Below, one piece after another: positions 22,841 through 42,866 of a stretch of 64,000 nt of DNA. Each line of letters opens with the position of its first letter. The stretch's first letter is position 1. The DNA is from Acidimicrobiia bacterium (GTDB lineage: Bacteria; Acidobacteriota; Vicinamibacteria; Vicinamibacterales; CAVVIG01): the NCBI GenBank assembly GCA_016871175.1, contig VFZL01000011.1, positions 1-64,000 on the forward strand, written 5' to 3'. Both the position numbers and the translations under genes were made by a program. Below the pieces are notes generated by a model. That model saw only the letters and a program-made list of their open reading frames with translations. It was not told the origin of the DNA and made no database searches.

Positions 22841-24781
22841 ATGAACGGCACCATGAATCGCAAGCTGGCCCTAGTGCTTGGGCCGGTGACCGGTGTGCTC
22901 ATGTTTGCTGGCGTCGTGCTGATCGCGACGTTCCTGACGAACCGCGAGTATGCCCAGCCGTATCGCGCTCCTGCCGCCGTCGTCGACCCCACGCCGAGGG
23001 TGGAGGGGGTAGCCGCCGAGGCGGCCGACGCCGAGGCGAAGGCAAAAGCCACGCCCTACGCCGAGGCCGAGTACCGTCAATTCCCCGTCATCGGAAGCCG
23101 AGTGGCCGTCTGGGCCGTTTCACAGCTGCACCTGCTCTTTGCGGCCTTTGTGCTTGCGGTCCCACTCTTCGCGATCATCATCGAGATCATCGGCTACAAG
23201 ACCGGAGACCTCCGGTACGACCGGCTCGCGCACGAGTTCACGAAGCTCCTCTCCGTCTCGTTCTCACTCACGGCGACCTTCGGCGCGTTCCTGACATTCC
23301 TGCTCATCGCCTTGTATCCGAAGTTCACGAACTATCTGATGAGCGTGTTCTCGCCGACGTTCCTCCCGTACGTCCTGCTGTTCTTCGCGGAGGCCGCGTT
23401 CCTCTACACGTACTACTACGGTTGGGGGAAGTTCCATCCGCTCGTCCATATTGGGCTAGGGATCGGTCTCAACCTGGTGGGCACGGGCATCATGCTCATT
23501 GCCAATTCCTGGCTCACGTTCATGACGTCGCCGGCCGGTGTCTCGGATACGGGGGCGCTCATCTCGCTCTACGACGCGGTCTACAACTTCACGTGGATGC
23601 CGATCAACATCCATCGCATCATTGCGAACGTGGCCTTCGGCGGTTCGGTGGCTGCGGCATACGCGGCCTTCAAGTTCCTGCAGGCGGAGACCGACGAAGA
23701 GCGCGCGCACTACGACTGGATGGGCTACATCGGCAACTTCGTCGCCATCCTCGCGTTCCTGCCCCTCCCCTTCGCCGGCTACTGGCTCGCGAAAGAGATT
23801 TATGCGTTCTCGCAGACGCTCGGTCTGACGATGATGGGTGGGGCGTTTTCGTGGCTCTTCATCATCCAGGCCGTCTTGATTGGGAACCTCTTCCTGGCGG
23901 CCAACTACTACCTCTGGCTCGGGATGGGGCGCGTCGAGGGCCGGCAGCCGCTTCAGAAGTTCATCAAGTACCTGCTCATCGGCATCGCGCTCTGCTTCGC
24001 CATCTGGGCGACCCCGCGGTCCATCCTCGCCACCGTCTCCGAAATTCGCGCGATGGGAGGGTCAACTCACCCGATGCTGGGCTTTTTGGGTGTGATGTCC
24101 GCCAAGAACACCGCGGTGAACATCCTCATCCTCACGACGTTCATGAGCTTCCTGTTGTATCGCCGCACAGGCAAGATCGCCACGGTGGCGTGGGCAAAGA
24201 CGGGGCATGCCGCACAGCTCACCATCTTCGCGGCCGCCGCGTTCATCGTCATCTTCCTCGGCATCTACGGATACTTCGTCGAGGCGACCGTGCGGATCGG
24301 GTTGTCGGTGCCTCAGGTCAGCTCGGTGCTGATCGCGATGGTGTCGATCACCATCATCGACGTGTTTCTGTTCCGTCGCGCGAAGATGACCGGCGACGTT
24401 CGCTGGGGCAAGATTCCGCCGATCTCGCAGTACGTGCTGATCTTCATCGCGGTCACCTTCACGTGGCTGATGGGTCTGATGGGCTACGTGCGCTCGGGGC
24501 TCCGCCAGCACTGGCATGTGTACGGCGTCATTCGGGACACGTCGCCCGACGCGTTCACCCCCACACTCGGCTTCGCCACGCAGGTCGTCTCGGTCACCGT
24601 GCTCATATTCTTCGTGCTGATCGGTTTCGTGTTCTGGATAACGAGTCTGCACGACCGACCGGATTTCGTGCCATCGGCCAAGACGGTCACGCATCCGGGC
24701 GCTGACGTCGTGCTTGGAGGCGCGCTCGGCCATCAGCCGGGCATCGCCCGCGCCTCGCACTTCGAAGGGCGAACCCAGTAA
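22841..24781 (+). CDS. Cytochrome bd-type oxidase subunit I (CydA)-like membrane protein
   Basis: 646 aa multi-TM; QLHLLFAAFVLAVPLFAIIIE, FFAEAAFLYTYYYGWGKFHPLVHIGLGIGLNLVGTGIMLIANSWLTFM, NIHRIIANVAFGGSVAAAYAAF match CydA helices around its heme ligands; no CydB downstream. Confidence 0.85.
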   Translation: MNGTMNRKLALVLGPVTGVLMFAGVVLIATFLTNREYAQPYRAPAAVVDPTPRVEGVAAEAADAEAKAKATPYAEAEYRQFPVIGSRVAVWAVSQLHLLFAAFVLAVPLFAIIIEIIGYKTGDLRYDRLAHEFTKLLSVSFSLTATFGAFLTFLLIALYPKFTNYLMSVFSPTFLPYVLLFFAEAAFLYTYYYGWGKFHPLVHIGLGIGLNLVGTGIMLIANSWLTFMTSPAGVSDTGALISLYDAVYNFTWMPINIHRIIANVAFGGSVAAAYAAFKFLQAETDEERAHYDWMGYIGNFVAILAFLPLPFAGYWLAKEIYAFSQTLGLTMMGGAFSWLFIIQAVLIGNLFLAANYYLWLGMGRVEGRQPLQKFIKYLLIGIALCFAIWATPRSILATVSEIRAMGGSTHPMLGFLGVMSAKNTAVNILILTTFMSFLLYRRTGKIATVAWAKTGHAAQLTIFAAAAFIVIFLGIYGYFVEATVRIGLSVPQVSSVLIAMVSITIIDVFLFRRAKMTGDVRWGKIPPISQYVLIFIAVTFTWLMGLMGYVRSGLRQHWHVYGVIRDTSPDAFTPTLGFATQVVSVTVLIFFVLIGFVFWITSLHDRPDFVPSAKTVTHPGADVVLGGALGHQPGIARASHFEGRTQ

Positions 24782-24783
24782 CC

Positions 24784-25422
24784 ATGGCGGTGCCTCTCAT
24801 TGGTCGGATCGGCGTCCTTATCCTCGCGTCGACAGCGTTCTATGCCTATGTCGGCCAGCTGGTGCCTCAGAACGAAGTGCAGCCTCCGCAAGAGACGGTG
24901 CTCAGAACGGACTTGACAACCGCCGAGATGGTGACGACTGGGCGGCAGATCATGGATGCCAAGGGGCTCTGCTTCACGTGTCACACCATCGGCCGGAGTG
25001 GAGCGCTCCGGTTCCCCGACTTGGCAGGCATCGCCGGTCGCGTGTCGGAACGCGCGCCCGGCGTAACCGACATCGAATACTTCGCTCAATCGCTCTACGA
25101 GCCTGATTCCTTCATCGTGCCAGGATTCAACCCCGGGATGCCGGCGATCAACAGGCCTCCCATTGGCCTGACAGACCAAGAAATCCTGTGTGTGATCGCC
25201 TACTTGCAGTCGCTCGGCGGCACGCCGACGGTCACGATGCAGACCAGCCACAAGTACTACACCCCGGCGGGTGCTGCGCCGGTAGCACCGGGCGAGGCTC
25301 CGGCGAACGGCGCCGCACCGGGTCAGAAGGCGGCGCCAGTTGCGCCCGCAGCCGCCGCGCCCGCGAAGAGTGCGCAGCTGAAGCCCCAGGCGGCTCATCT
25401 CGGTGGAGCGTTCACATCATGA
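24784..25422 (+). CDS. Monoheme c-type cytochrome
   Basis: GLCFTCHTIGRSGALRFPDLAGIAGR; N-terminal TM; Ala/Pro-rich C-terminus. Confidence 0.8.
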   Translation: MAVPLIGRIGVLILASTAFYAYVGQLVPQNEVQPPQETVLRTDLTTAEMVTTGRQIMDAKGLCFTCHTIGRSGALRFPDLAGIAGRVSERAPGVTDIEYFAQSLYEPDSFIVPGFNPGMPAINRPPIGLTDQEILCVIAYLQSLGGTPTVTMQTSHKYYTPAGAAPVAPGEAPANGAAPGQKAAPVAPAAAAPAKSAQLKPQAAHLGGAFTS

Positions 25423-26234
25423 ACATCACGGTTCTCCTCGCGCTGATCGCGGTGCTCGTGGCCCTTCGCTTCATGAAGGCTCACCTGCTCCTGTGGGCTG
25501 GTGCGTGGTGGGTGGGGATCTACGTCCTGCTCCGATTTGGATTCCGGGTCCCGATTCCGGCCTCTGTCATTTCGATCTACATGGGGATCGTGACGCTCGC
25601 GATCCTGGCGTACTTGTCCTCCAGCGACGAGCGCCGCGAGGAAGTGTTCGGCCCACTCGTCCGGTTCATGACAGAGCGGCGGCACACCCCGTTCCTGGCC
25701 GTCACAGTCCTCGCCATACCGGCGCTGGCCGCCGCGAACGTCTATGTGCAGATGAACGTCGCGATCGAACCGCCCTTCTTCCCGCGCACGATCCACCCGG
25801 CATCGCCGACCGAGATCACGGTCCAGGACCAGCGGATCTCCATCGATTCGGGTGACAACCCGTATCGCGCGCTCGAGCAGTCGAATCCGGATGAGTTCCG
25901 CAAGCACGTGGAGAACGGCCGCCGCGTCTACTATCAGAACTGCTTCTTCTGCCACGGCGACAACCTCGGGGGCAACGGCATGTACGCACATGCGCTGAAC
26001 CCGATTCCCACCAACTTCGCTGACGGTACGACGCTCCCGAGTTTCCGCGAGACCTTCTTCTTCTGGCGGGTTTCCAAGGGCGGCCCTGGGATGCCCGAAG
26101 AGGGAGCGCCCTGGGACACGGCTATGCCGGCCTGGGAGAAGATGCTGAAGGAAGAAGAAATGTGGGACGTGATCCTCTTCCTCTATGACTTCATGGGCCA
26201 GCGGCCCCGCGCGCGCGAGGAGGTCCACCAGTGA
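25419..26234 (+). CDS. Membrane-anchored c-type cytochrome
   Basis: ATGA overlap with previous gene; TM segments then NCFFCHGDNLGGNGMYAHALNPIPTNFADG. Confidence 0.82.
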   Translation: MNITVLLALIAVLVALRFMKAHLLLWAGAWWVGIYVLLRFGFRVPIPASVISIYMGIVTLAILAYLSSSDERREEVFGPLVRFMTERRHTPFLAVTVLAIPALAAANVYVQMNVAIEPPFFPRTIHPASPTEITVQDQRISIDSGDNPYRALEQSNPDEFRKHVENGRRVYYQNCFFCHGDNLGGNGMYAHALNPIPTNFADGTTLPSFRETFFFWRVSKGGPGMPEEGAPWDTAMPAWEKMLKEEEMWDVILFLYDFMGQRPRAREEVHQ

Positions 26235-27901
26235 CGACGCGTCAGATCGCACGGGGTTTGACCCTTGCCTGGCTGGCCGTCCTGTGTGTTGGGACGGGAC
26301 TGGCGCGCGCTCAGAGTCCTGACATCGGCACCGAGGCGCAGCGTGAGGCGGGCAAAGTCCTGTACATGAAGCTGTGCTCACAGTGTCACGGCGAGAAGGG
26401 GGACGGCGCCGGGTACGCGACGCCGAACGTGCTCCCGAAACCTCGCGACTTCACCTCGGGCAAGTTCAAGGTCCGGACGACCGGCAGCGGCGCGCTCCCG
26501 ACGCACCAGGATCTGGTCAACATCATCAGGAAGGGCATGCCCTACACGTCGATGCCTTCCTGGCCCGGTCTGTCTGAGGAAGAAGTTTCGAACCTCGCCT
26601 ATTTCATCACCACGTTCTCGGCGGACTTCTCCAATCCTGAGGCGGCTCCGAAGCCCATTGACCTCCCAAGCGCTCCGGCATCGACGCCCGAGTCGATTGA
26701 GACCGGGAAGAAGCTCTACGAAGAGAACGGCTGCATCAAGTGCCACGGCACGCTGGGTCGCGCCGACGGTCCTTCGGCCCTCACCTTGAAGGACGAGGCG
26801 GGCAATCCGATTCGCCCGGCCAACCTCACGCACAGTTGGACCTTCCGGGGAGGTTCGTCGCGCGAGGACATCTTCAGGACGATGAGTACGGGGTTCAACG
26901 GAACGCCGATGCCGTCGTACTTAGAAGCGCTGCCGCCGGAGCAGCGGTGGGCGATTACGGACTTCATCGCGTCGCTCTCAGACACGAATGGGCCGGGCTA
27001 CACCAACCTCATCGTCGCCAGGCCCGTTCAGGATCCGATCGACCTGGCCAAGGGCGCCGAGAGCTTCGCGTCCGCACCCGTCGCTCGGTTCCCGCTTCTG
27101 GGACAGATTACGGAACCCGGACGCTCGTTCCATCCGCCCGCTACCAGCGTCACCGTGCAGGCCATCTACGACGCGGAGTCGATCGCGCTCCTCGTCAAGT
27201 GGCACGACATGAGAGCGGACAAGACGGGCAAGAACAGTCCGTCACTGCCCATCCCTCCGGAGGAGGAAGCGGGTGGTGAGGCACCGTCCGCGGCACCGGC
27301 GGCGTCGGAGACCGAAGCGGATCCGTTTGCCGACACCACCGAGGACACCGTCGCCCCGCCAGCGGAGTTCTCCGACGCGGTGGCGGTCCAGTTTCCTGTA
27401 GCCGTGCCAGCTGGCGCCCGCAAGCCCTACTTCATCTTTGGCGACTCCCAGAGCTCCGTGGACCTCTGGTTCTTCGACCTTGCGCGCAACGAGCCCCTCC
27501 AGTTCATCGGTCGGGGAAGCGGGGACGTCGCAGTCAACGATGCGGGAGACGTCACAGGTGTCGCGAGCTACAGCGACGGAGAATGGTCGGTCATCTTCAG
27601 GCGTCCGCTTCGCGCCAGCTCCGGCGCCCCGTTCACGCCTGGACAGTTCATGCCGATCGCCTTGTCCGCCTGGGACGGATCCGCGCGGGAGCGTGGCAAC
27701 AAGCGAGCGCTCTCCGTCTGGTACTCGCTGTACATGGAGCCCGAAACGGTCCCGTCGGCCGCGGGCCCGATGATCAGGACGGCGCTCATCATCTTCGGGT
27801 TAGAGCTGGCAATCATTGGTTGGGTTCGATCTCGTCTCCGATCGCAGGCCCGCAACGAGATTCGCGGGGAGGGAAGACCGCAGCCGGCCATGGGCAGTTG
27901 A
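26231..27901 (+). CDS. Diheme cytochrome c with ethylbenzene-dehydrogenase-gamma-like (EB_dh) heme-binding domain
   Basis: CSQCHGEKGDGAG and CIKCHGTLGRADG, followed by an EB_dh-like region (SVTVQAIYDAESIALLVKWHDMRADK...SYSDGEWSVIFRRPLRA...FMPIALSAWDGSARERGNKRALSVWYSLYM); C-terminal TM. Confidence 0.78.
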   Translation: MTTRQIARGLTLAWLAVLCVGTGLARAQSPDIGTEAQREAGKVLYMKLCSQCHGEKGDGAGYATPNVLPKPRDFTSGKFKVRTTGSGALPTHQDLVNIIRKGMPYTSMPSWPGLSEEEVSNLAYFITTFSADFSNPEAAPKPIDLPSAPASTPESIETGKKLYEENGCIKCHGTLGRADGPSALTLKDEAGNPIRPANLTHSWTFRGGSSREDIFRTMSTGFNGTPMPSYLEALPPEQRWAITDFIASLSDTNGPGYTNLIVARPVQDPIDLAKGAESFASAPVARFPLLGQITEPGRSFHPPATSVTVQAIYDAESIALLVKWHDMRADKTGKNSPSLPIPPEEEAGGEAPSAAPAASETEADPFADTTEDTVAPPAEFSDAVAVQFPVAVPAGARKPYFIFGDSQSSVDLWFFDLARNEPLQFIGRGSGDVAVNDAGDVTGVASYSDGEWSVIFRRPLRASSGAPFTPGQFMPIALSAWDGSARERGNKRALSVWYSLYMEPETVPSAAGPMIRTALIIFGLELAIIGWVRSRLRSQARNEIRGEGRPQPAMGS

Positions 27902-27927: not shown

Positions 27928-29979
27928 ATGTACAAGAGCATTTACGTTCCCGTCGACAACTCAGACCACTCCAATCGTGCTGTCGCCTGCAGCGTCGCCC
28001 TGGGCAAGGCGTTCGACGCCAAACTGGTCGGCTGCCACGTGTACGCGGCACAGCTGCACGACTACCGCTTTCGGCAGATGGAGTACACCCTGCCGGAAGA
28101 GTACATCGATGAAGTGGAGCTCGAGCGCCAGAGGAAGATCCACGACAGCCTCATCACGATGGGTCTGAAGCTCATCTCCGACAGCTATCTCGATGGGATG
28201 TCGCGTCTCTGCGGCGAATCGGGCCTCGCGTTCGAGCCGCGGATGATGGACGGCAAGCATCACAACGAGATCCTCAAGGATCTCACCGGCTCGAAGCACG
28301 ACCTCGTCGTGATTGGGGCTCTGGGCGTGGGCCGCGCGCGCGACAGCGTAATCGGCTCGGTGTGCGAACGCGTGGCTCGCCAGTCCGATCGCGATGTGTG
28401 GGTGGTCAAGCACGTCCCCGAGCCGGGCGAAGCTGAGCGAGACACGATTCTCGTCGGTGTCGACGGCAGCCCGCAGTCGTTCGGCGCGCTCATGACGGCC
28501 ATCGAGTTGGCACGGAAGTTCGACAAGAAGATTGAAGCCATCGCCGTGTACGACCCCTATCTGCACTACTCGGTCTTCAACGGCATCGTCAACGTCCTCA
28601 CGGAGCAGGCGGCGAAGGTGTTCCGCTTCGAGGAACAGAATCAGCTCCACGAGGAGATCATCGACACCGGGCTGGCGCAGATCTATCAGTCGCATCTCGA
28701 AGTGGGCGAGCGGATGGCGAGCGAAGAGGGCGTCACGATCAAGAAGACGCTCCTCGACGGTAAGCCATTCCAGAAGATTCTCGACCACGCACGTAAGACC
28801 AATCCGTGGCTCATCGTGATGGGACGCATCGGCGTCCACAGCCCGAAGGACGAGGCAGGGCTTGGGAGCAACTCAGAGAACGTCTTGCGAGCGGCGCCTT
28901 GCGACGTACTCCTCTCCACACGTCTCGAGGTGCCACGCCTCGACGTGCGAGCCGAGGAAACCATTCGGTGGACGCCAGAGGCCGAGGAGCGCATGAAGCA
29001 CGTGCCCGATCAGGTCAAGGGCATCGCCCGCACGGGCGTTCTTCGTCTTGCGCTCGAGAAAGGGCATTCGGTGATCACCAGCGCCGTGATCGATGACGCG
29101 ATGGATCGGTTCATGCCGAAGAGCGCCTCCAATGCCACGAAGGCGCTGGCCGAAGCCGTGGCGCTCGAGCGCGCGAAGTCCGGTCCCGTGTCGATGTGCC
29201 GAGCGTGCGGCGTGACGGCGACGCAGAGCGATCCCGTGAAATGCACGGTCTGCGGCGCCTCGGATTTCGAAGTCATCTCCCAGGAGATGATCGAGAGGAT
29301 CGCAGAGGTTGAAGGTGGCCTCGAGGAAGAGACCACCTACGACGGGCGGAAGCTTCGCTGGACCGACGACGCGCGGAAGGGCCTCTGGACGATGAAGAAC
29401 GCCTATCAGCGCCGCCGCGTCAAGGCGCGCGTCGAGAAGCGCGCTCGCATGATGAAGCTCGACGCCATCACGCTCGACTTCGCACGGCAGGTGATCGAAG
29501 AAGAGACGGGGACGCCGCTCGATATCAAGGCCTCGTCGGCCCACGGCGCAGGCGGCGCAGGTCGGTCCTCGGCCACCGCGAACGGCAATGGTTCAACGGG
29601 CGAGGCCAAGCTCATCGCGCGCGATGACCGGAAGAACCCGCTGATCTCGACGTTCGAGTGGACCGGCGACGCCGCGCAGCGGATCCTCCGAGTCCCGGCC
29701 GGCTTCATGCGGGGCCAGACGCAGGAGAGAATCGAGCAGCTCGCGCATGAGCGCGCCGTGACGACCATCGACCTCGGCCTCGTCGAAGAGGGCATCGAGA
29801 TCGGCAAGAAGATGATGGCCGAGATGCTCGCGAACTACACGCCGCCGACTGCGAATACCGGCAACGGAACGGCGCCGCGAGAGTCTGCTACCCACTCACC
29901 GTCAGGCGCGCCCGCTCAGGTCAACAGAGGCGGGTACCTGAATGAGGTGAGCGCGCTGTCGTCGAAGCGGGTGAACTGA
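27928..29979 (+). CDS. Universal stress protein (two domains) - Zn-ribbon - three PCP_red-like domains
   Basis: GGAGG upstream; MYKSIYVPVDNSDHSNRAVACSVALGKAF and DTILVGVDGSPQSFGALMTAIELARKF; CRACGVTATQSDPVKCTVCGASDFE; PCP_red-like WTPEAEERMKHVPDQVKGIARTGVLRLALEKGHSVITSAVIDDAM, WTDDARKGLWTMKNAYQRRRVKARVEKRARMMKLDAITLDFARQVIEE, WTGDAAQRILRVPAGFMRGQTQERIEQLAHERAVTTIDLGLVEEG. Confidence 0.85.
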   Translation: MYKSIYVPVDNSDHSNRAVACSVALGKAFDAKLVGCHVYAAQLHDYRFRQMEYTLPEEYIDEVELERQRKIHDSLITMGLKLISDSYLDGMSRLCGESGLAFEPRMMDGKHHNEILKDLTGSKHDLVVIGALGVGRARDSVIGSVCERVARQSDRDVWVVKHVPEPGEAERDTILVGVDGSPQSFGALMTAIELARKFDKKIEAIAVYDPYLHYSVFNGIVNVLTEQAAKVFRFEEQNQLHEEIIDTGLAQIYQSHLEVGERMASEEGVTIKKTLLDGKPFQKILDHARKTNPWLIVMGRIGVHSPKDEAGLGSNSENVLRAAPCDVLLSTRLEVPRLDVRAEETIRWTPEAEERMKHVPDQVKGIARTGVLRLALEKGHSVITSAVIDDAMDRFMPKSASNATKALAEAVALERAKSGPVSMCRACGVTATQSDPVKCTVCGASDFEVISQEMIERIAEVEGGLEEETTYDGRKLRWTDDARKGLWTMKNAYQRRRVKARVEKRARMMKLDAITLDFARQVIEEETGTPLDIKASSAHGAGGAGRSSATANGNGSTGEAKLIARDDRKNPLISTFEWTGDAAQRILRVPAGFMRGQTQERIEQLAHERAVTTIDLGLVEEGIEIGKKMMAEMLANYTPPTANTGNGTAPRESATHSPSGAPAQVNRGGYLNEVSALSSKRVN

Positions 29980-30076: not shown

Positions 30077-30096
30077 CGGAGCCGCACAAGGTAGCA

Positions 30097-30987
30097 ATGT
30101 CCGCGTACCGATTTTGCCGCACCGACGATATTGGTCTGCTCGTCAACGCGCTGAATCGCTGCTGGTCTCCTTACGTACCTGACCAACCGCCCGAGACGCC
30201 GACCACATTCAAGCGGTCGATCCGCGACCTGCAGGTCTGGTGCAGCAGCTGTATGGTGGCGTTCGTCGGTGCGGACCCGATTGGCGTCCTGATCGGCGGG
30301 AAGCGGCCCACTGGAACCCTGATCCACAGGATCGCCGTCCATCCCAGTCACCGCCGACAGGGTCATGGACGACACCTGCTGACCTCGCTCAGCTCGAAGC
30401 TCGCCATCCTCGGCCCACCTCGGATCGTCGCCGAGGTCCCTGAACAGCTCACGCCCGCCCGCGAGCTGTTCAAAGCTTGCGGCTTCACCCAAGAAGCAGT
30501 CCTGACGGACTACGCGCGGCCGTTCGACTGGGTGGAGTCCGATGTGCCTGCTCAGGGGGTCGGTGGCCTGGTCATTCCCGTCACGGTTGACGATCTGGTT
30601 GCAAACGGCCTCCTCGGAGACACCCAGCCACTGCTCTGCTGGGAGCGCTCGGTCGAGACGCTCACCGCCAGGAAAGCCGAAATCGCCGGACTCGCCATCG
30701 CCAACGACGAACGCATTGAAGCGTATCTTCTGTACCTCAAGCGCGAAGTGGCCGCAGAGCCGGACGATGAGGCGAGAACGCCTGCCACGGAGCTGGTGTC
30801 GCTCCGCTCCATGGTCGACGATGGTGGAGCTCGTCTGAGGCGTTTGCTCTCACAGCTCCCGGATCGGAGGAGCGTCCGCATCACGAAGGTCCATCCGGCG
30901 GAGATCTCCAAGCAGATCCTGGAGTCGGTCGGGTTCCGTCCGTGCGGCGAACATCTCCTCCACGCGGCGAGGGCACGTTCGAACTAA
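30097..30987 (+). CDS. GNAT-family N-acetyltransferase
   Basis: MSAYRFCRTDDIGLLVNALNRCW...IHRIAVHPSHRRQGHGRHLLTSL (acetyl-CoA binding motif). Confidence 0.8.
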   Translation: MSAYRFCRTDDIGLLVNALNRCWSPYVPDQPPETPTTFKRSIRDLQVWCSSCMVAFVGADPIGVLIGGKRPTGTLIHRIAVHPSHRRQGHGRHLLTSLSSKLAILGPPRIVAEVPEQLTPARELFKACGFTQEAVLTDYARPFDWVESDVPAQGVGGLVIPVTVDDLVANGLLGDTQPLLCWERSVETLTARKAEIAGLAIANDERIEAYLLYLKREVAAEPDDEARTPATELVSLRSMVDDGGARLRRLLSQLPDRRSVRITKVHPAEISKQILESVGFRPCGEHLLHAARARSN

Positions 30988-31623: not shown

Positions 31624-32637
31624 ATGAAGAGCTACCACGACATCGTCGGCGACGGCGGGTCCAGAATCCTCGAGCAGGTCGCCGAGCAGCGCGCTCGTAT
31701 CGCGGACGGGCTCGCCGGGGTGCGCCATCTCGTGGCCATCGGCTCCGGCAAAGGGGGCGTCGGCAAGAGCACGCTGACCGTGCACCTCGCGGGCGCTCTG
31801 CGCGACCGCGGCCTTCGGATTGGGATCCTGGACGCAGACTTCAACGGCCCTACGCAGGCGCGAATGGCTGGGGTTCAGGGAGCGCTGTTCGTTCCGGGCA
31901 GCCACAAGGTGTCGCTCCCACGCACCAAGAACGGGATTGCGGTTTTCTCGATGGGTTCGCTGATTCCCGAGTCGCAGGCGCTCGAGTTCGACAGTGCGGC
32001 GCAGGGGGAGTCTCATACCTGGCGAGCCACGAGAGAGTTCGCGCTCCTCGGCGAAATCCTCCGGTCCTTCGAGTGGGGAGAGCTGGATGTGCTGCTGCTC
32101 GATCTGCCGCCCGGAGCCGACCGGACCGTGCAGTACGCCGACTTCCTCGGTCCACAGGTCGCGTTTCTGTTGGTGACGATTCCTTCCGAAGTATCCCGAG
32201 GGGTGGTCGCGCGTTCGGTGGCGGCGTTGTCGAAGGGCCCCAATCGCCTCCTTGGATACGTCGAGAACATGAGCGGCTACTATTGTCGCGACTGCAAGGC
32301 GATCAAGCCGCTCTTCGATTCATCCCCGCCCCTGGCCGGTACCTGGGGCAGGCCCCCCAACCAGGCTCAGAGCGAAGACCGAGGGTCTACGCTGGGAATC
32401 CGCTGCCTCGGGACCGTCCCATTCGATCCCGAACTTGCTCGGCGCTGCGACCAGGGCCTTCCGTTCGCGGTGATGAACGACAACCCGGTGAGCCACGCGT
32501 TGACCCACATCGCGGAGCGCCTTATGGCCGTTCTCGAGTCGACGCCGGCCGCTGATCCTGCGGGTGCGATACAGTTAGAGCAGCGAACCTCTGCTCGCGC
32601 TGGTGAGCCGAGGGTCGACAAGGATGTCCGACCATGA
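31624..32637 (+). CDS. Mrp/ApbC (NBP35-type) P-loop ATPase
   Basis: Deviant Walker A AIGSGKGGVGKSTLTVHLAGAL; DVLLLDLPPGADRT; VENMSGYYCRDCKAIKPLF (CxxC). Confidence 0.88.
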   Translation: MKSYHDIVGDGGSRILEQVAEQRARIADGLAGVRHLVAIGSGKGGVGKSTLTVHLAGALRDRGLRIGILDADFNGPTQARMAGVQGALFVPGSHKVSLPRTKNGIAVFSMGSLIPESQALEFDSAAQGESHTWRATREFALLGEILRSFEWGELDVLLLDLPPGADRTVQYADFLGPQVAFLLVTIPSEVSRGVVARSVAALSKGPNRLLGYVENMSGYYCRDCKAIKPLFDSSPPLAGTWGRPPNQAQSEDRGSTLGIRCLGTVPFDPELARRCDQGLPFAVMNDNPVSHALTHIAERLMAVLESTPAADPAGAIQLEQRTSARAGEPRVDKDVRP

Positions 32638-33125
32638 AGTTCCTGTGTGTGCCCTGCGACAGCCCGATGAAGCTTCAGTCCGTGGGTCCGCCCGAGCGTG
32701 GCTCGCTGTCGGTCGTCTACGCGTGCCCCGAGTGCGGGTACGAAATGGCGATGCTCACCAATGCGTACGAAACACAAGTCGTTCAATCATTGGGCGTGCG
32801 AATCGGACCGGCCGAAGCTTCAGCGCAGGCTGGCCTCGTTCATGCCGCCGCTGGCCCCTCGGCGAGCCCTTCGGATGGATCAGCAGAAGGTAGCCGCTGC
32901 CCGTTCACCGCGCTGATACCAGGGGCGGAACAGCCAAAACCCCGGCAGGCCGGCACACAAGTCGCCGTACGTTGGACGTCGGCTGCCGAGGCTCGGCTGG
33001 CCAACATTCCCGCGTTCGTGCGTCCGATGGCGCGAACGGGAATCGAGACGTTCGCGCGGGAGAGGGGCGTTCTCGAAGTGGATGAGCAGATCCTCGACGC
33101 CGCCCGCGAGTTCTTCGGCATGTAA
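32634..33125 (+). CDS. Zn-ribbon protein with C-terminal PCP_red-like domain
   Basis: MKFLCVPCDSPMKL...VYACPECGYEMAML (two CxxC) and VRWTSAAEARLANIPAFVRPMARTGIETFARERGVLEVDEQILDAAREFFGM. Confidence 0.82.
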   Translation: MKFLCVPCDSPMKLQSVGPPERGSLSVVYACPECGYEMAMLTNAYETQVVQSLGVRIGPAEASAQAGLVHAAAGPSASPSDGSAEGSRCPFTALIPGAEQPKPRQAGTQVAVRWTSAAEARLANIPAFVRPMARTGIETFARERGVLEVDEQILDAAREFFGM

Positions 33126-33158: not shown

Positions 33159-34733
33159 ATGTCGGAATCGACGACCAGTCCGCTCCCGCTCATCCTTCGA
33201 CGTCGCGAACCAGGTGGTGAAGCGGGCCGAATGGACAAGCCTGTCCCGAGCGAGAACGCGGGCCACGCCCCGCGGCAGGTCGAGGGATTCGCACGGCCCT
33301 ACGTCATCTCCTGGAACCTCACGTATCGCTGCAACCTCGCCTGCGAGCACTGCTATCTCGACGCCGGCGGCACGCCGCTCGTCACCACGGAAGACTTCGC
33401 CGATCGGAGCGAGCTCGGCACCGAGGAATGCTTCCGTGTCATCGACGACATCGCCAGTTTCGCACCCGAATGCCTGACGATTCTGACAGGCGGTGAGCCA
33501 CTTCTTCGGCGCGATATCCTCGAGATCGTCAAGCGCGCGGCGGAGCGCGACCTCTGGGTGGTCGTCGGGACCAACGGCGTGCGAATTAGCGAGAACGTCG
33601 CTAGCCGGCTGGCAGAGGCCGGAGCCCGTGGCCTGTCCCTCTCGCTCGATGCGCTCGATGCGGAGCGTCACGATCGTTTCAGAGGAGTGCGTGGCGCCTG
33701 GAAGAACACCGTCGAGGGAGCGGCCATCCTCAACCGAACCGGGCTTCCGTTCATCGTTCAGACCACGGCCGGTTCGCACAATCTTCGCGAGCTTGAAGCG
33801 ATCGCCGACTTCGCGTACGAGCACTTGGCCGCCAAGGTCTGGAACCTCTACTTCCTGGTGCCGACCGGGCGCGGGCAGTTCGTCTCGGACATGACCCCGG
33901 CGCAGTACGACGGAGTGCTCGCGTCGCTCTTCCGCATCCAGACCAAGTACAAAGGCCGGATGCTCGTAAACGCGAAGTGCGCACCGCACTACATCAAGAC
34001 GGTGCTCGAGCAGGTCAGTTCTAGCGGAGGCGCCTCAGATTCGATGACAGCCGACGCCGCTGCTGGGCAAGGCGCTTTGGGGTCCGGTCTGTCTCCGATA
34101 CGGACGTACTCCGGCGGGGCCGGCGGATGTCCAGCGGGGACGCACTACATGGGGATTCGGCCGAACGGTGACGTCACGCCGTGCCCGTACCTCCCGGTTT
34201 TCGCGGGGAGCCTTCGCCGCTCGAGTCTGGCTGACCTCTGGACGTCATCCGAGTTGTTCACTGACGTTCGCCACCGGTCATCGCTCGGAGGACGCTGTGG
34301 CGCCTGTGAGATGAACGGCCATTGCGGAGGTTGCCGTGCCCGCGCCCACGGTATGGTTGGCGACCTGATGGCCGAGGACCCCCTCTGCACCCACACGCCC
34401 GGGAAGTTCGCGGGGTCGCCCCTGCTCACGCTGGCCGGTGGGCCATCCGCGGGAGCGCAGCTGGGCGCAGGGATCCGAGCCAACGACGGGGGCTGGGAGC
34501 AGGGCCGCGCGATGCCGCCCATACAGGGCATTCAGTACGGCACTGAATCAGCGCCGACCATCGCGTGGGACGAGGCCGCCGCCGCGCGGATGAAGAAGAT
34601 TCCGGCGTTCGTGCGTGGGATGGTGATGAAGGCGGTCGAGGACTCCTGTCGTAAGAACGGCCTCGACCGCGTGACGGTGGAAGAGCTCGAACGGATCCGC
34701 GCGCGAATGCCGACCCCGAAGTTCTTCGGATAG
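33159..34733 (+). CDS. Radical SAM/SPASM protein (NirJ/AhbD-like) with C-terminal PCP_red-like domain
   Basis: WNLTYRCNLACEHCYLDAGG (CxxxCxxC), SPASM-like CPAGTHYMGIRPNGDVTPCPYLPVFAGSL and CGACEMNGHCGGCRARAHGMVGDLMAEDPLC; C-terminus WDEAAAARMKKIPAFVRGMVMKAVEDSCRKNGLDRVTVEELERI. Confidence 0.87.
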   Translation: MSESTTSPLPLILRRREPGGEAGRMDKPVPSENAGHAPRQVEGFARPYVISWNLTYRCNLACEHCYLDAGGTPLVTTEDFADRSELGTEECFRVIDDIASFAPECLTILTGGEPLLRRDILEIVKRAAERDLWVVVGTNGVRISENVASRLAEAGARGLSLSLDALDAERHDRFRGVRGAWKNTVEGAAILNRTGLPFIVQTTAGSHNLRELEAIADFAYEHLAAKVWNLYFLVPTGRGQFVSDMTPAQYDGVLASLFRIQTKYKGRMLVNAKCAPHYIKTVLEQVSSSGGASDSMTADAAAGQGALGSGLSPIRTYSGGAGGCPAGTHYMGIRPNGDVTPCPYLPVFAGSLRRSSLADLWTSSELFTDVRHRSSLGGRCGACEMNGHCGGCRARAHGMVGDLMAEDPLCTHTPGKFAGSPLLTLAGGPSAGAQLGAGIRANDGGWEQGRAMPPIQGIQYGTESAPTIAWDEAAAARMKKIPAFVRGMVMKAVEDSCRKNGLDRVTVEELERIRARMPTPKFFG

Positions 34734-34745
34734 CTCGAACGGGCT

Positions 34746-35552
34746 CTACTGCGCGAACGGGTCGTCAGCGGTCTCGACCGCCTCCTTGACCTTTTCGTCC
34801 ATCCATTTCTGGAATTCCTCTGCGGTCTGGACCGTGACGAATCCTCGCATCCGGAAGTGACCGAGCCCGCAGAGCTGTGCGCAGGCGATCTCGTATTGGA
34901 AGTTGGGGTTTCCGGTTCGAGTCCGCATCTCGGCGGTTGTGACGTCCGGGATGAACCAGATCGGAATGGTCAGGCCGGGCACCGCGTCCTGCTTCACGCG
35001 GAACTCTGGTACGCCGAAGCCGTGAATGACGTCCTTGCTCCTTAGCCTGATGATGACGGGCCTGTTCACGGGCAGATAGAGCTGATTCAGCGTCGTCACG
35101 TCGTCCTTCGCGGCCGGATCGGATCGATCGAGCCCGAGAGGGTTCGTCTGGACGTCGATCATCTTGATGTCCGTGCGGCCGAAGACCCCGTCGGGACCTG
35201 GGTAGCGAATGTTCCACGCGAACTGTTCGCCCGTGACCTGAACGACCAGCGCTTCCTTATCAGAGGGGATCTCGTCGACCCTCGCGGCCCACAGCGGAAT
35301 CGAGAAGGCGAAGAGAAGGACGAGTTCGACGAGGAGCACGCCGCCCTCGAGATAGCTCGACGCGTGTGACCGGACGCCGTGATGGTCTGCGACTGGATGT
35401 GCCGACTTGCGGAAACGAACCAGGACGTAGAGGAAGAACGCCCCCCACCCGATGAACAGGATCAGCATGAAAATGTGTATCCAGCCGATCAGGTTGTCGA
35501 TCTGCGCGCCGTGAGTTGCGGCAAGCCTCGGAAGTCCAAGCCACTCAGTCAT
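34746..35552 (-). CDS. coxB: Cytochrome c oxidase subunit II
   Basis: DVIHGFGVPEFRVKQDAVPG and CuA motif CAQLCGLGHFRM. Confidence 0.9.
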   Translation of the reverse strand: MTEWLGLPRLAATHGAQIDNLIGWIHIFMLILFIGWGAFFLYVLVRFRKSAHPVADHHGVRSHASSYLEGGVLLVELVLLFAFSIPLWAARVDEIPSDKEALVVQVTGEQFAWNIRYPGPDGVFGRTDIKMIDVQTNPLGLDRSDPAAKDDVTTLNQLYLPVNRPVIIRLRSKDVIHGFGVPEFRVKQDAVPGLTIPIWFIPDVTTAEMRTRTGNPNFQYEIACAQLCGLGHFRMRGFVTVQTAEEFQKWMDEKVKEAVETADDPFAQ

Positions 35553-35842
35553 GTTCTAGACGCTCCCTTTTGGAGCTCCGACCACTCGATATCGAGGTCG
35601 GTGTCAGCGATCTGCTTCGCGCGATTGCGAAGGTAGAGAAAGAAGCCCAGGAACGCGCCCTGCACCGCCAGCGTGATGCCTAACAGCGCAAAGACACCCA
35701 GTCTTGTCCCGTCGATGATCGTCGTCTCCTCGGCTCCAAAGCACACTGGACACGCGAAGACGGTCGACCCACCACCCGACACCAGGGCGGCCGCTGTGAC
35801 GAGCACCCGCATGGCCCCGAGACGTCTTGAAGGTGTCTTCAT
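35549..35842 (-). CDS. Small membrane protein of the oxidase operon
   Basis: Signal/TM; VFACPVCFGAEETTIIDGTRLGVFALLGITLAVQGAFLGFFLYL. Confidence 0.65.
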   Translation of the reverse strand: MKTPSRRLGAMRVLVTAAALVSGGGSTVFACPVCFGAEETTIIDGTRLGVFALLGITLAVQGAFLGFFLYLRNRAKQIADTDLDIEWSELQKGASRT

Positions 35843-36039
35843 CGAAGTGTCCTCGTCTGGCGGAGAAACCACGAATCGTAGACGACCAGGCCGAACGACA
35901 CGACAAACGCCGCGATGGCCCCAATCAGGCTACCGATCTCGCCGTCCTGCCGGTACTGGGACAGACACCAGAGGCCGAACACCACGGCGACCGCCGCGGA
36001 GAAGAAGATCAGCAGCGCGTGGAACCAGCGCAGGTTCAT
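35839..36039 (-). CDS. Small two-TM protein of the oxidase operon
   Basis: MNLRWFHALLIFFSAAVAVVFGLW...; overlaps neighbouring genes by 4 bp. Confidence 0.6.
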   Translation of the reverse strand: MNLRWFHALLIFFSAAVAVVFGLWCLSQYRQDGEIGSLIGAIAAFVVSFGLVVYDSWFLRQTRTLR

Positions 36040-36344
36040 TCGGGAATCCAATAACCGTTGCTGTGTGTGACGACCGGAAGAGCCAGCAGTACGACGAAGA
36101 AGGCAGCGGTGACCGCCAGCACCGCGTAGATCAGCTTCTTCTCGGAAATGAGGTGCATGAAGTAGCACGCGACCAGCGATCCCTTGACAATGGCGACGAC
36201 CAGCGCGACGGTCACCGCCAAGGGCACGGACAGATGGAGACGAGAGATCGCCACCGTAATTACGGTCAGCACCATGAGTGCGACGAAGACGGAGATGTAG
36301 ACCCTAACGTGTCTGTCGATATCAACTGCGTGATCGCTCGTCAT
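36036..36344 (-). CDS. Cytochrome c oxidase subunit IV-like (CyoD/CtaF type)
   Basis: Three-TM 102 aa protein: HVRVYISVFVALMVLTVITVAISRLHLSVPLAVTVALVVAIVKGSLVACYFMHL. Confidence 0.85.
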   Translation of the reverse strand: MTSDHAVDIDRHVRVYISVFVALMVLTVITVAISRLHLSVPLAVTVALVVAIVKGSLVACYFMHLISEKKLIYAVLAVTAAFFVVLLALPVVTHSNGYWIPE

Positions 36345-36353
36345 AGACGCTGC

Positions 36354-36944
36354 CTACAGCAGATACAAGGTCGGGAAGAGGAAGATCCACACCAGATCCA
36401 CGAAGTGCCAGAAGAGGCCGGAGTTCTCGACCCGGTTCGTGAACCACTCCGGGTTGGTGTAATACTGCTTCGCGCCGGGACCCCAGAAATACGCGTTCAC
36501 CGCCATGCCGCCCGCGACGTGCAGCATGTGCAGACCGGTCAGCGTGAAGTAGATGGCGTAGAAGTTGTCGGTGCTGGGGAAGTGCCCGTGGTGGAACTTG
36601 TCGCTGTATTCGAAGTACTTGACGATGAGGAAGACCAACCCGAGCAGGACCGTTCCCCCTATATACATGCGGAATGTCCCCAGTTTGCGGCGCATCAGCG
36701 ACGCCCACGCCATGACCATCGTCACCGACGACGAAATCAGGACGAGCGTGTTGAAGGTGGCCAACGGGACACTCAAGATCGTGTCTCCGCGAGGCCAGCT
36801 CGAAGACCCTGTTCGGATGAGGATGTACGATGCGAACAGCGCGCCGAACAGCATGACTTCCGACGCGAGGAAGAGCCAGATCCCAATCTTGCCGTTGTTC
36901 AGGCCGGTATCGCGCCGTGCTTCTACTGTGTACGGGATCTCCAT
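36354..36944 (-). CDS. coxC: Cytochrome c oxidase subunit III
   Basis: GIWLFLASEVMLFGALFASYILIR...GLHMLHVAGGMAVNAYFW...FWHFVDLVWIFLFPTLYLL. Confidence 0.92.
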   Translation of the reverse strand: MEIPYTVEARRDTGLNNGKIGIWLFLASEVMLFGALFASYILIRTGSSSWPRGDTILSVPLATFNTLVLISSSVTMVMAWASLMRRKLGTFRMYIGGTVLLGLVFLIVKYFEYSDKFHHGHFPSTDNFYAIYFTLTGLHMLHVAGGMAVNAYFWGPGAKQYYTNPEWFTNRVENSGLFWHFVDLVWIFLFPTLYLL

Positions 36945-36949
36945 GGTGA

Positions 36950-38713
36950 TCAGGCCTCACACTGCGGTACGAAGTCCTTCTTCGCGCCGGGAAGGCTGTA
37001 GTCGTACGGACCTCGGTGGGCTACCGGTTCCGTGCTGAAATTTCCGTGCGGCGGTGGCGACGGAGCCGCCCACTCGATGGTGGTCGCCTCCCATGGATTG
37101 TCTCCCACCTTCTCTCCGTTCCACATGCTCGAGAAGAAGTTGTAGATGAAGGGTAGCTGGAAGAGCGCCATGATCCACGCGCCCCAAGACGACACGGCGT
37201 TCCAGTGGAGAATCGGCTGCGCGAAGTCGTAGGTCGCCCCGCCGTCGAAGAGCCGCCGTGACACGCCGGCCATCCCCACGATGAACATCGGCATGAAGAC
37301 GATGTTCATGCAGATCATCGAACCCCAGAAATGGATCTTGCCGAGCGTCTCGTTCATCATCCGCCCAGTCGCCTTCGGGAACCAGTAGTAGACCCCCGCG
37401 AAGAGGGCGAAGATCGTCCCGGGCGCGACGACGTAGTGGAAGTGGGCGATGACGTAGTACGTGTCGTGCAGGGGAATATCCGACACGTTCAGGCCAAGCG
37501 GCAACCCGGTCAGGCCGCCGATCCCGAACATCGGCAGGAAGCCGAGCGCGAACAGCATCGGCGTATTGAACCGGATGGACCCACCCCAGAGCGAGAGGAT
37601 TAGTGCCGTCAGGATGACGACCGACGGGATCGAAATGATCATCGTTGTCGTCTGGAAGAACGTCGCCATGGCGGTCCCCATGCCGGTCATGAACATGTGG
37701 TGCGCCCAGACGATGAACGACATGAAGCCGAGGAACACGAGCGAGTAGACCATCGGCTTATAACCCCACAACGGCTTGCGTGTGTTGTTCGCGATGATCT
37801 CGGCGACGATGCCCATGGCGGGGAGGATCAAGACATAGACCTCCGGGTGCGCCAGGAACCAGAAAAGGTGCTGCCAGAGGAGGGCGTTGCCGCTACCCGC
37901 CACCTGGAGCGGCTGGCCGCTCACGACGAGGCCGCTCGGGAGGAAGAAGCTCGTGCCCGCCACGCGATCCATCAACTGCATGACGCCCGCAGCCTCCAGC
38001 GGTGGGAAGGCCAGGAGCAGGAGGAACGCGGTGACGAACTGCGTCCACACGAAGAAGGGGAACCGCATGAACATCAGCCCCTTGGCGCGGAGCTGAATCG
38101 TGGTCGTGATGAAGTTGATCGCGCCGAGCAGCGACGAGGTAATCAGGAAGATCATCCCGACCAGCCACCACGTCTGACCTGAACCCGCGATGATGGCCAG
38201 AGGCGAGTAAGAGGTCCACCCGGACTGCGCGGCGCCGCCCGGCACGAAGAAGCTCGCCAGCATCGTCACGCCGCCCAGGAAGAAGGCCCAGTAGCTCAAC
38301 ATGTTGAGCCGCGGGAACGCCATGTCTGGGGCTCCAATCTGGAGCGGGAGCACGAAGTTGCCGAATCCGCCGACGGCGAGCGGTACCACGCCCATGAACA
38401 CCATGATGGTCCCGTGCATCGCCCCGAGCTCGTTGTAGAACTCGGGAAGCATGGACCCCCCGGGCATGCGCGCCTCGCCGAACAGCGCGCCAATGATCGG
38501 CAGCGGGGCACCTGGGTACGCCAGCTGCCAGCGCATGAGCATCATCAGACAAAAGCCGAAGAAGAGGAACAGCAGGCCGCTGATGCCGTACTGGATCCCG
38601 ATGACCTTGTGGTCCACGGAGAAGACGTACTTTCGCCAGAAGCCGAGCTCTTCGTGATGGGCCTCGTGCCCGACGTGTGGTCCGTGTGGGTCGACGGTTG
38701 TTGGGTGGCTCAT
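36950..38713 (-). CDS. coxA: Cytochrome c oxidase subunit I
   Basis: FWRKYVFSVDHKVIGIQY, HPEVYVLILPAMGI, WAHHMFMTGM, HDTYYVIAHFHYVV. Confidence 0.95.
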   Translation of the reverse strand: MSHPTTVDPHGPHVGHEAHHEELGFWRKYVFSVDHKVIGIQYGISGLLFLFFGFCLMMLMRWQLAYPGAPLPIIGALFGEARMPGGSMLPEFYNELGAMHGTIMVFMGVVPLAVGGFGNFVLPLQIGAPDMAFPRLNMLSYWAFFLGGVTMLASFFVPGGAAQSGWTSYSPLAIIAGSGQTWWLVGMIFLITSSLLGAINFITTTIQLRAKGLMFMRFPFFVWTQFVTAFLLLLAFPPLEAAGVMQLMDRVAGTSFFLPSGLVVSGQPLQVAGSGNALLWQHLFWFLAHPEVYVLILPAMGIVAEIIANNTRKPLWGYKPMVYSLVFLGFMSFIVWAHHMFMTGMGTAMATFFQTTTMIISIPSVVILTALILSLWGGSIRFNTPMLFALGFLPMFGIGGLTGLPLGLNVSDIPLHDTYYVIAHFHYVVAPGTIFALFAGVYYWFPKATGRMMNETLGKIHFWGSMICMNIVFMPMFIVGMAGVSRRLFDGGATYDFAQPILHWNAVSSWGAWIMALFQLPFIYNFFSSMWNGEKVGDNPWEATTIEWAAPSPPPHGNFSTEPVAHRGPYDYSLPGAKKDFVPQCEA

Positions 38714-38742
38714 GGGCCCCGATCTCCCGATCGCTACTGCTT

Positions 38743-39480
38743 TTACTTGGTGGGTGTGCTGAATTTGAAGTCCTGCGTCTTCGTGTCGCTGCCGCTGACG
38801 GTGACCGAGGCCGCTTGTATCCCCAGTCGCTCGTGCCAGGCGGTGATCTCGTAGGTACCCGCGTCGAGATTCGCGATGGTGAACTTCCCGTCCGTGCCGG
38901 TCACCGAGAAGAACGGATGCGTGAAGACGCCGATGTATGCGCTCATCCACGGATGGACGTCGCACTTGACCTGGAAGATCGCCTCCGCTTTGTCGAACTG
39001 CGTGCTCGTCTCCTTCAGATTCGCCGGCATCGCGCGGTTGAACGACGCGTTCACCTTGGGAAGCGTGTGGATGTTGTGGAGGACGCCGTCAGAGTTGAGG
39101 ATCCGGTAGGGCTGACCGACCATGATTCCCATCGCGTGCGGTACGTAAACACAACCGTTCTGATCGAGCGTCACGGGCGTCTTCGGTGCGGGATAGGTCT
39201 TTGCGGCCGGGAGCCCCTTTGACACCCACACGATGATGTTGGCCATCGCGTTGCCACTACCCATGACGAGCATCTCGGCCGGCACGGGTCCGGAGTGCTT
39301 CTTGGCGCACGCCGGGTCGGCGTCCATCGCGAGCGGCCTGAGATTGGGGGCTTTCCCAGCGAAGGTGATGGTCCCGGTGACGGTCGACGCGGCAAACCCG
39401 ACGCTCGGCGAGATCAACACGGCGACGAGCCCAGCCGTCAGCCACAACCCGTTCCTTCTTTGCGTGTTCGACTTCTTGAT
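38743..39480 (-). CDS. Exported cupredoxin-like/carboxypeptidase-regulatory-like protein
   Basis: GVLHNIHTLPK...VKCDVHPWMSAYIGVFTHPFF (type-1 Cu-like H/C/H/M) then DGKFTIANLDAGTYEITAWHERLG. Confidence 0.72.
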   Translation of the reverse strand: MKKSNTQRRNGLWLTAGLVAVLISPSVGFAASTVTGTITFAGKAPNLRPLAMDADPACAKKHSGPVPAEMLVMGSGNAMANIIVWVSKGLPAAKTYPAPKTPVTLDQNGCVYVPHAMGIMVGQPYRILNSDGVLHNIHTLPKVNASFNRAMPANLKETSTQFDKAEAIFQVKCDVHPWMSAYIGVFTHPFFSVTGTDGKFTIANLDAGTYEITAWHERLGIQAASVTVSGSDTKTQDFKFSTPTK

Positions 39481-40842: not shown

Positions 40843-41400
40843 TCAGGACTCCAGCAGCTCGACGCTTCGGGCACCCAGGGACGCCAGGAGCTTCTGGGTC
40901 GCCGACGGGTCGAACTTTGGGTCCCACGATTCGACCGAAATGAAAAACGCATCGTCCGTCACGCGGTCGAAGACCTTGGAGCGGAACAGCGGATGGTGGT
41001 GCATGGGCAGCCGGTTCAGACCAAGCATGCCGAAGACGGCACCGAAGGCGGCGAAGAGCACACCCAACTCGAAGGTCACCGGGATGAACGCGGGCCACGA
41101 AAACAGCGGCTTACCGCTGATCACGAGCGGGTAGGCACTCGTGTGAACCCACCACTGCAGGACGAACCCCGTCGCAAGGCCGGTCAATCCCGCGCCAAGG
41201 ACGATCCAGGGAAGCGGGGAGCGCCCAAGCCCCATCGCTTTCTCGAGGCCGTGGACGGGAAACGGCGTATGGGCGTCCCATCGCGTGAATCCGGCGTCAC
41301 GCACTCTCTCGCACGCGTGGTACAGGTCAGCCGGGGTCGCGAACTCCGCCAGGACTCCGAAGTACGGTCCCTTGGGAAGCTGCGGCGTGAAAAGCCCCAT
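40843..41400 (-). CDS. actD: Alternative complex III subunit D (DUF3341)
   Basis: YFGVLAEFATPADLYHACERVRDAGFTRWDAHTPFPVHGLEKAMGLGRS. Confidence 0.88.
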   Translation of the reverse strand: MGLFTPQLPKGPYFGVLAEFATPADLYHACERVRDAGFTRWDAHTPFPVHGLEKAMGLGRSPLPWIVLGAGLTGLATGFVLQWWVHTSAYPLVISGKPLFSWPAFIPVTFELGVLFAAFGAVFGMLGLNRLPMHHHPLFRSKVFDRVTDDAFFISVESWDPKFDPSATQKLLASLGARSVELLES

Positions 41401-42866
41401 TACGAAGCTCCTTCGGTCACGGGATCAGGCGTCCCTCCGTGCCGCAGCGCCGCTCGGTGGTCCTTGCTCTCGCGCTCGGGGCCCCGATGCCAGTGCGGAT
41501 CGGCCTGTGGCAGGACCGTCTTGACCTCGGCGGTCGCCACCATCGGCAGGAAGCGCACGAACAGGCAGAACATCGTGAAGAAGAGCCCGAAGCTCCCGAG
41601 CAACGTCGACAGGTCCCAGAACGTCGGCGTGTAGTAATCCCAAGACGAGGGAAGGAAATCGCGGTGCAGTGAGGTCACGATGATCGTGAACCGTTCGAAC
41701 CACATGCCGATGTTGATGACGATCGACACCACGAACAGAATCGGGATGCTCGTGCGAGCCTTCTTGAACCAGAAGATCTGTGGGCTGATCACGTTGCACG
41801 AGAACATGATCCAGTACGCCCAGGCGTACGGCCCGAACGCGCGATTGACGAACGTGTAGACCTCGTAGGGGTTCCCGCTATACCAGGCGGTGAAGAACTC
41901 GGTGGTGTAGGCGTAGCCGACGATCGTCCCCGTCACGAGCATGATCTTCGCCATGTAGTCGAAGTGCCGGAGCGTGACGATGTGCTCGAGGCCGAACGCC
42001 GTCCGGCAGATCACCATGAGCGTCAGTACCATCGCGAAGCCGGAGAAGATGGCGCCCGCGACGAAGTACGGCGGGAAGATCGTCGTGTGCCAACCCGGGA
42101 GGACCGACACCGCGAAGTCCATCGAGACGATCGAGTGCACCGAGAGGACCAGTGGCGTCGCGAGAGCCGCGAGCACGAGGTAGGCGGACTCGTAGTTGTG
42201 CCACTGCCGCACCGAGCCGCGCCACCCCAGGGCGAAGAGGCCGTATGCGAACTTGCGTGTCTGGGTCTTCGCCCGATCCCGCATAGTCGCCAGATCGGGA
42301 ATCAACCCTACGTACCAGAAAAGAACGGAAACCGTTCCGTACACGCTAACGGCGAACACATCCCAGAGGAGAGGGCTCCTGAAGTTGGGCCAGGTGCCCA
42401 TCTGGTTCGGGAGCGGGAACATCCAGTAGGCCACCCAGATGCGCCCAACGTGGATTCCGGGAAACGTCAGGGCGCACATGACCGCGAAGATCGTCATGGC
42501 TTCTGCCGCCCGATTGATCGAGGTGCGCCACTTCTGGCGGAAGAGGAAGAGGATCGCCGAGATCAGCGTCCCCGCGTGCCCGATCCCGATCCAGAAGACG
42601 AAGTTCGTGATGTCGAATGCCCAGCCGACTGGGACGTTGAGCCCCCAGATCCCGATCCCCTCCCAGACCAGCCACGCGACCGACACGCCAAGCAGGCCCA
42701 GCACCGCCACCGACGGGAGGAAGAAATACCACCACGCCCTGGGTGTAGGTCGCTCCACCGGCTCCGCGACAGCGTCGGTGATGGAGTGGAAATCCGGCGA
42801 GCGCAGGATGAGAGTGGGTTCGCCCGCGACAGGGTTATCGAGCAGCTCCGCTTCCGTCTGGGCCAA
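41400..42866 (-). CDS. actC: Alternative complex III subunit C (NrfD/PsrC-like)
   Basis: 488 aa polytopic; [53 protein letters not shown]. Confidence 0.9.

Follow-up and report, generated by a model that had tools for sequence, protein, structure and literature searches.

What does a radical SAM-SPASM enzyme with a fused C-terminal PCP_red domain, a domain known from chlorophyll synthesis, do at the end of a cytochrome bd-like gene cluster? The enzyme in question (rSAM-PCP) is encoded in a bacterial DNA stretch of 64,000 nucleotides, the whole of which is referred to here as the window. The first-pass annotation had read the gene as a NirJ/AhbD-like radical SAM-SPASM enzyme carrying its own PCP_red-like domain. 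Its observation on positions 33159-34733 is confirmed and its interpretation is partly supported, but it missed the conserved bd-like/alternative-complex-III-like cluster around the gene, which encodes two more PCP_red proteins. The features of the locus are as follows.

19103-22228 (+): ActB-like molybdopterin-fold/4Fe-4S protein (TAT-variant MoCo_extend), conserved in the order
22225-22827 (+): cytochrome c in ActE-like position, conserved in the order
22841-24781 (+): cytochrome bd-like subunit I, 646 aa (PF01654, 83 bits)
24784-25422 (+): monoheme cytochrome c, conserved in the order and at wider loci
25188-26234 (+): membrane-anchored cytochrome c, conserved in the order and at wider loci
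26231-27901 (+): cytochrome c plus ethylbenzene-dehydrogenase-gamma-like protein, conserved in the order and at wider loci
27928-29979 (+): double universal-stress (Usp) domain protein with a zinc ribbon and two Pfam PCP_red copies, conserved in the order and at wider loci
30094-30987 (+): GNAT-family protein, conserved in the order and at wider loci
31624-32637 (+): NUBPL/Mrp-type P-loop ATPase of the iron-sulfur carrier family (PF10609, 4.3e-51), conserved upstream of rSAM-PCP
32634-33125 (+): zinc-ribbon (CxxC..CxxC) plus PCP_red protein (ZnR-PCP), 163 aa (Pfam PCP_red, 3.9e-16)
33159-34733 (+): rSAM-PCP, 524 aa (Pfam, NCBIfam, ortholog alignment)
33330-33353 (+): CxxxCxxC radical SAM cluster motif (C58, C62, C65), from the sequence and invariant in the ortholog alignment
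33978-34388 (+): eight SPASM cysteines (C274, C324, C342, C380, C383, C389, C392, C410), with AhbD-type spacing from C324
34566-34697 (+): PCP_red domain of rSAM-PCP, residues 470-513 (Pfam)
34746-38965 (-): convergent operon cox2-(two small proteins)-cox4-cox3-cox1, downstream of rSAM-PCP
40843-42866 (-): ActD and NrfD/ActC-like subunits of alternative complex III (window protein scan)

The gene for rSAM-PCP is the last of a conserved same-strand cluster that starts at the ActB-like MoFeS protein. The bd-like subunit I combines a CydA domain with the active-site heme histidine, as in the cytochrome bd superfamily. In the alignment, its H97 and E184 correspond to H19 and E107 of E. coli CydA and are invariant in the 7 bd-like rows aligned, and it has no equivalent of E. 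coli CydA E99. Cytochrome bd-like oxygen reductases of the OR-N type have been described for Nitrospirales and Nitrospinota and have a CydA-like subunit beside alternative-complex-III-type genes, as in the window (PMC12342949, PMC10839748). The passages searched in these papers contain no mention of a radical SAM partner, and our literature search found no paper joining radical SAM enzymes with bd-like oxidases. Alternative complex III looks as though it were divided between two operons, with the ActB-like gene in the bd-like cluster and the ActD and NrfD/ActC-like genes in the convergent cox operon.

Domain architecture and cysteine pattern

The frame at 33159-34733 is open over its 524 codons. 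Many genomes encode orthologs (57-84% identity), so the frame is not a product of chance. Conservation is poor over residues 1-40, which leaves both M1 and M25 as candidate translation starts. Three Pfam domains exceed their gathering cut-offs, namely Radical_SAM (residues 53-219, 1.6e-22), SPASM (residues 324-383, 1.8e-9) and PCP_red (residues 470-513, 5.4e-13; 49.2 bits against a cut-off of 32.5), which bears out the fused C-terminal domain proposed earlier. With both a CxxxCxxC motif and a SPASM domain, the protein belongs to the radical SAM/SPASM superfamily. Its cysteines follow the pattern C58xxxC62xxC65, C274 (within CAPHY), and C324-x17-C342-x37-C380-x2-C383-x5-C389-x2-C392-x17-C410. 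All 11 of them (three radical SAM and eight SPASM) are invariant in 24 orthologs, and PCP_red is found in every one of these 24 aligned proteins.

Like the PCP_red domain (PF08369) of subunit B of dark-operative protochlorophyllide reductase (DPOR), the one in rSAM-PCP is C-terminal. Unlike in DPOR subunit B, PCP_red is carried here by a radical SAM enzyme, a zinc-ribbon protein (ZnR-PCP, which matches the C-terminus of DPOR subunit B and the stand-alone Asr4154) and a universal-stress protein. These three proteins hold all four PCP_red copies of the window genome, each within this cluster, and the domain was found in 16 of 120 genomes of the order. The Usp protein has an unusual architecture, in which the zinc ribbon is of the CxxC..CxxC kind and a weak third repeat lies between the two PCP_red copies.

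SPASM enzymes often modify peptides or proteins. It is thus conceivable, if improbable in our judgement, that rSAM-PCP is a protein-modifying or maturation enzyme acting on a cluster protein such as ZnR-PCP, the bd-like subunit or a cytochrome, with PCP_red as a docking module. The small ZnR-PCP protein encoded directly upstream, with which it has PCP_red in common, would fit such a role, as would the best fold matches of its AlphaFold model (mean pLDDT 68.5; PCP_red not placed by the model) among solved structures, which are the peptide enzymes PqqE, SuiB and SkfB. A PDB sequence search gave no AhbD, and the fold matches to this model do not separate heme from peptide enzymes. Against protein modification, Pfam finds no RRE or PqqD-like domain in rSAM-PCP, and among the best matches listed there is no conserved short precursor besides the ZnR-PCP gene itself.

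Placement among SPASM enzyme families

The best-scoring NCBIfam family is AhbD (TIGR04545; 280.6 bits, cut-off 500), followed by NirJ2 (TIGR04055; 268.5 bits, cut-off 500), TIGR04053 (260.5 bits, cut-off 395) and NirJ (TIGR04051; 155.7 bits, cut-off 515.45). rSAM-PCP passes none of these four curated cut-offs. The peptide-type families MftC and PqqE score 128 and 121 bits, respectively, likewise below their cut-offs.

For the phylogeny, references were classed by NCBIfam as AhbD (L102 and L103), NirJ2 (L104), MftC (L110) and TIGR04053 (L031), and were supplemented with annotated plasmid genes for NirJ, PqqE, MftC, TIGR04053 and peptide maturases. The rSAM-PCP proteins form one clade (support 93/70), within which 23 core rows are supported at 100/100. 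The single NirJ2 row, one long branch, adjoins this clade (97/91). Further outward follow AhbD together with AhbD-like paralogs, then TIGR04053, then NirJ, and the peptide maturases lie outside. The AhbD references group with the AhbD-like paralogs (95/84), apart from the rSAM-PCP clade. rSAM-PCP does not group with the peptide-maturing SPASM enzymes (PqqE, MftC, nif11, GDL), which speaks against protein modification. Support is weak at the deep forks (84/60 and 81/27), among them the one that separates heme from peptide enzymes, so a heme-type rather than a peptide-type enzyme is favoured but not proven. The first-pass annotation had suggested a phylogeny of this kind, and had named a position within peptide-maturase families with a precursor peptide nearby as the finding that would speak against its reading. 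The tree places the protein outside those families, weakly at depth, and the conserved short frames among the best matches listed are parts of the ZnR-PCP gene.

The cysteines point in the same direction as the scores. Only AhbD, AhbD-like and NirJ2 rows have both C274 in CAPHY and the full eight-cysteine set, whereas four of the eight SPASM cysteines are missing from TIGR04053 and from NirJ, and C274 is missing from MftC and PqqE. By these sequence comparisons rSAM-PCP is closer to AhbD and NirJ2 than to NirJ. The affiliation with heme-pathway SPASM enzymes claimed at first therefore stands, but NirJ is the more distant of the two relatives then named.

Each of the related families also differs from rSAM-PCP. 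The full SPASM motif of AhbD, with two auxiliary clusters, has been published, with a gap of 20-33 residues at the position of C274-C324 (PMC10452713). rSAM-PCP shares with AhbD the radical SAM domain, the eight SPASM cysteines including that in CAPHY, and the x17-x37-x2-x5-x2-x17 spacing, but its C274-C324 linker is longer (49 residues) and variable, and it has a fused PCP_red, a separate clade, a bd-like cluster and a genome without AhbA/B. NirJ2, the nearest branch, has the same cysteine set, but is represented by one long-branched reference, and no PCP_red occurs in the TIGR04055 stretch compared. TIGR04053 has a similar overall domain plan, with Thermus and Haloferax records near nitrite reductase or oxidase-type genes, but it differs in score and cysteines. 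NirJ has only the broad enzyme group in common, and its heme d1 partners are absent here. We see an even chance that rSAM-PCP represents a new subfamily within the AhbD/NirJ2-type radical SAM-SPASM enzymes, one that specifically serves a cytochrome bd-like respiratory complex.

AhbD-like proteins that group with true AhbD are encoded in other genomes of the order (L014-L030); two of them were scanned and score 434-459 bits, under the cut-off of 500. These proteins were not recovered with a PCP_red match.

Conservation of the cluster across genomes

A scan of 84,980 species genomes yielded 44 usable rSAM-PCP orthologs, labelled (as metagenome-assembled genomes) Acidobacteriota, Myxococcota/'Deltaproteobacteria', Chloroflexi, Verrucomicrobia, Hydrogenedentota and others. 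Eight full-length orthologs from four families of the order keep the cluster layout, at 60-85% identity, as far as their contigs reach; in one genome (G054) the bd genes are on another contig. Across several phyla, the NUBPL and ZnR-PCP genes precede rSAM-PCP at 35 of 38 testable orthologous loci. Of the 29 loci with at least 9 kb of flank, 25 have bd-operon or Usp genes upstream, and in one acidobacterial genome, whose 10-kb flank was too short, the complete bd-like operon lies farther out on the upstream side. None of the 12 neighbour families sought was present at any of 36 control radical SAM loci.

A bd-like protein (at least 40% identity) is found in 14 of 120 genomes of the order, including all 10 with a full-length rSAM-PCP. 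As for the other four, the contig of one (G071) ends inside the Usp gene, two (G056 and G037) are fragments at contig ends, and the last (G110) has the bd operon through the GNAT gene, after which its contig continues for 7.4 kb without rSAM-PCP, NUBPL or ZnR-PCP. The radical enzyme thus has a strong link to the bd-like complex, although, given G110 with its operon lacking the last three genes, the complex may not strictly need it.

In two relatives at lower identity, L100 (43%) and L105 (39%), the NUBPL-ZnR-PCP pair is missing from the position directly upstream, and a ZnR-PCP match was not recovered from L100 at all. This is a further point against protein modification. For protein modification speaks a gene with an FGE-sulfatase domain, of the formylglycine-generating type, that follows rSAM-PCP in some relatives (L069, L071, L076, L080-L082 and L084, of Thermoanaerobaculia type; Pfam on the L076 copy). 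Genome G001 has only the PCP_red tail of rSAM-PCP (L042, near 8004-8219; 73-75% identity over residues 451-524), apparently a remnant.

Heme pathways and the possible role of rSAM-PCP

If rSAM-PCP is a heme-type enzyme, the tetrapyrroles available to it depend on the pathways of its host. No match to PF17805, the family of AhbA/B and NirDLGH, was found in the whole window genome (96.8% complete), and the same search was positive in four control genomes. This extends to the genome the earlier remark that heme d1 genes are missing from the window, answers the suggested search for nirDLGH/ahbAB in the negative, and leads us to reject a heme d1 or siroheme pathway for this genome. With AhbA/B absent, the siroheme-derived substrate once considered is unlikely in the window organism. 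That rSAM-PCP is a NirJ-type enzyme of such a pathway, as its sequence similarity to NirJ could suggest, is in our estimate highly improbable, given also the cysteines that NirJ lacks, its position outside the rSAM-PCP clade and the absence of a cytochrome cd1 domain among the window proteins scanned.

The gene set of the window genome appears to fit a coproporphyrin-type heme pathway, since ferrochelatase is present together with an intact but divergent ChdC-family gene on another contig, HemF was not found, the HemN match is only at HemW level and AhbA/B are missing. All genomes of the order with a full-length rSAM-PCP keep a ChdC-family gene, so we reject replacement of ChdC by rSAM-PCP in the order. 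A degraded ChdC/HemQ gene of the chlorite-dismutase family, interrupted by stops (70 bits joined), lies at 44477-44839 (-) of the window, and a partial copy, also with a stop, lies about 10 kb from the cluster of genome G003.

Elsewhere the ChdC-family gene is present in 6 and absent in 32 of 38 rSAM-PCP genomes, which at first suggested replacement. A search that combined the E. coli sequences of HemF and HemN with the window-genome ferrochelatase in one query found HemF (~60% identity) beside a ferrochelatase-like match in most Thermoanaerobaculia-type genomes, and HemN in others. We therefore reject a missing last heme step there, as HemF or HemN is present in most. The occurrence of rSAM-PCP with either ChdC-type or HemF/HemN-type pathways makes a role as the (only) housekeeping heme synthase improbable, and favours a substrate that both pathway types provide, for example heme b.

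These distributions also bear on whether rSAM-PCP could be an AhbD-like, oxygen-independent coproheme decarboxylase that forms heme b from Fe-coproporphyrin III under low oxygen for the respiratory complex, in place of or as a backup to ChdC or HemF. AhbD is the best-scoring family and its SPASM cysteines match, and coproheme should exist in a genome that seems to be of the coproporphyrin type. Two relatives (L092 and L093) moreover have protoporphyrinogen oxidase within the cluster (223 and 306 bits, cut-off 98) and heme o synthase after rSAM-PCP (272 bits, over, and 206 bits, just under the cut-off of 210), followed in L093 by a CtaA-like protein. We nevertheless consider a decarboxylase unlikely, because the AhbD score is far under its cut-off, the protein lies outside the AhbD clade, and ChdC is retained throughout the order. 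In most genomes elsewhere, with HemF or HemN and no ChdC, coproheme is no normal intermediate, and rSAM-PCP is tied to the bd-like cluster and not to hem genes.

Co-occurrence with the bd-like complex across several phyla, together with heme-type relatedness, suggests instead that the complex may receive a special heme which rSAM-PCP produces or completes. The heme o synthase and protoporphyrinogen oxidase genes at the L092 and L093 loci fit this reading too. That rSAM-PCP is a dedicated heme-tailoring enzyme is a reading to which we give about half of our confidence. The analysis shows the domains, the cysteine set, the clade, the conserved cluster, the confinement of PCP_red to it and the occurrence with both types of heme pathway; the substrate, reaction, PCP_red role and target that we propose below are inferred. 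In AhbD and NirJ, a deoxyadenosyl radical acts on propionate side chains of tetrapyrroles (PMC10452713, PMC7242693). In rSAM-PCP the N-terminal [4Fe-4S] cluster would likewise cleave SAM to a 5'-deoxyadenosyl radical, which would attack a completed iron-porphyrin (heme b, for example) at one of its side chains, most probably a propionate, while the SPASM clusters carry the electron. PCP_red could help to bind or hand over the tetrapyrrole, or could serve for docking, given that its known setting is DPOR subunit B and that it recurs on three cluster proteins. The NUBPL ATPase would supply iron-sulfur clusters, and the product heme would end up in the bd-like subunit or in a heme protein encoded nearby. 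More tentatively, and with less confidence than in heme tailoring as such, the cluster could both make and use a previously undescribed heme, formed when rSAM-PCP modifies a side chain of heme b or of a late relative, carried by the PCP_red modules on the three proteins and then placed in the active site of a bd-like reductase for oxygen (or nitric oxide) that occurs in several phyla.

A heme-type radical SAM enzyme in a bd-like cluster would offer a direct handle on the heme content, electron donor and maturation of non-quinol bd-like oxygen reductases, and would give PCP_red a function beyond photosynthesis that can be put to the test. It also cautions against labelling AhbD/NirJ-like genes of such bacteria as heme b or heme d1 synthases.

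Some related loci contain further genes. In L083 and L085, an NrfD/ActC-like gene directly follows rSAM-PCP on the same strand, with an ActD-like gene next in L085. A related cluster in L090 encodes another PCP_red protein (3351-4268), which has a weak PNPOx-like flavin-barrel stretch.
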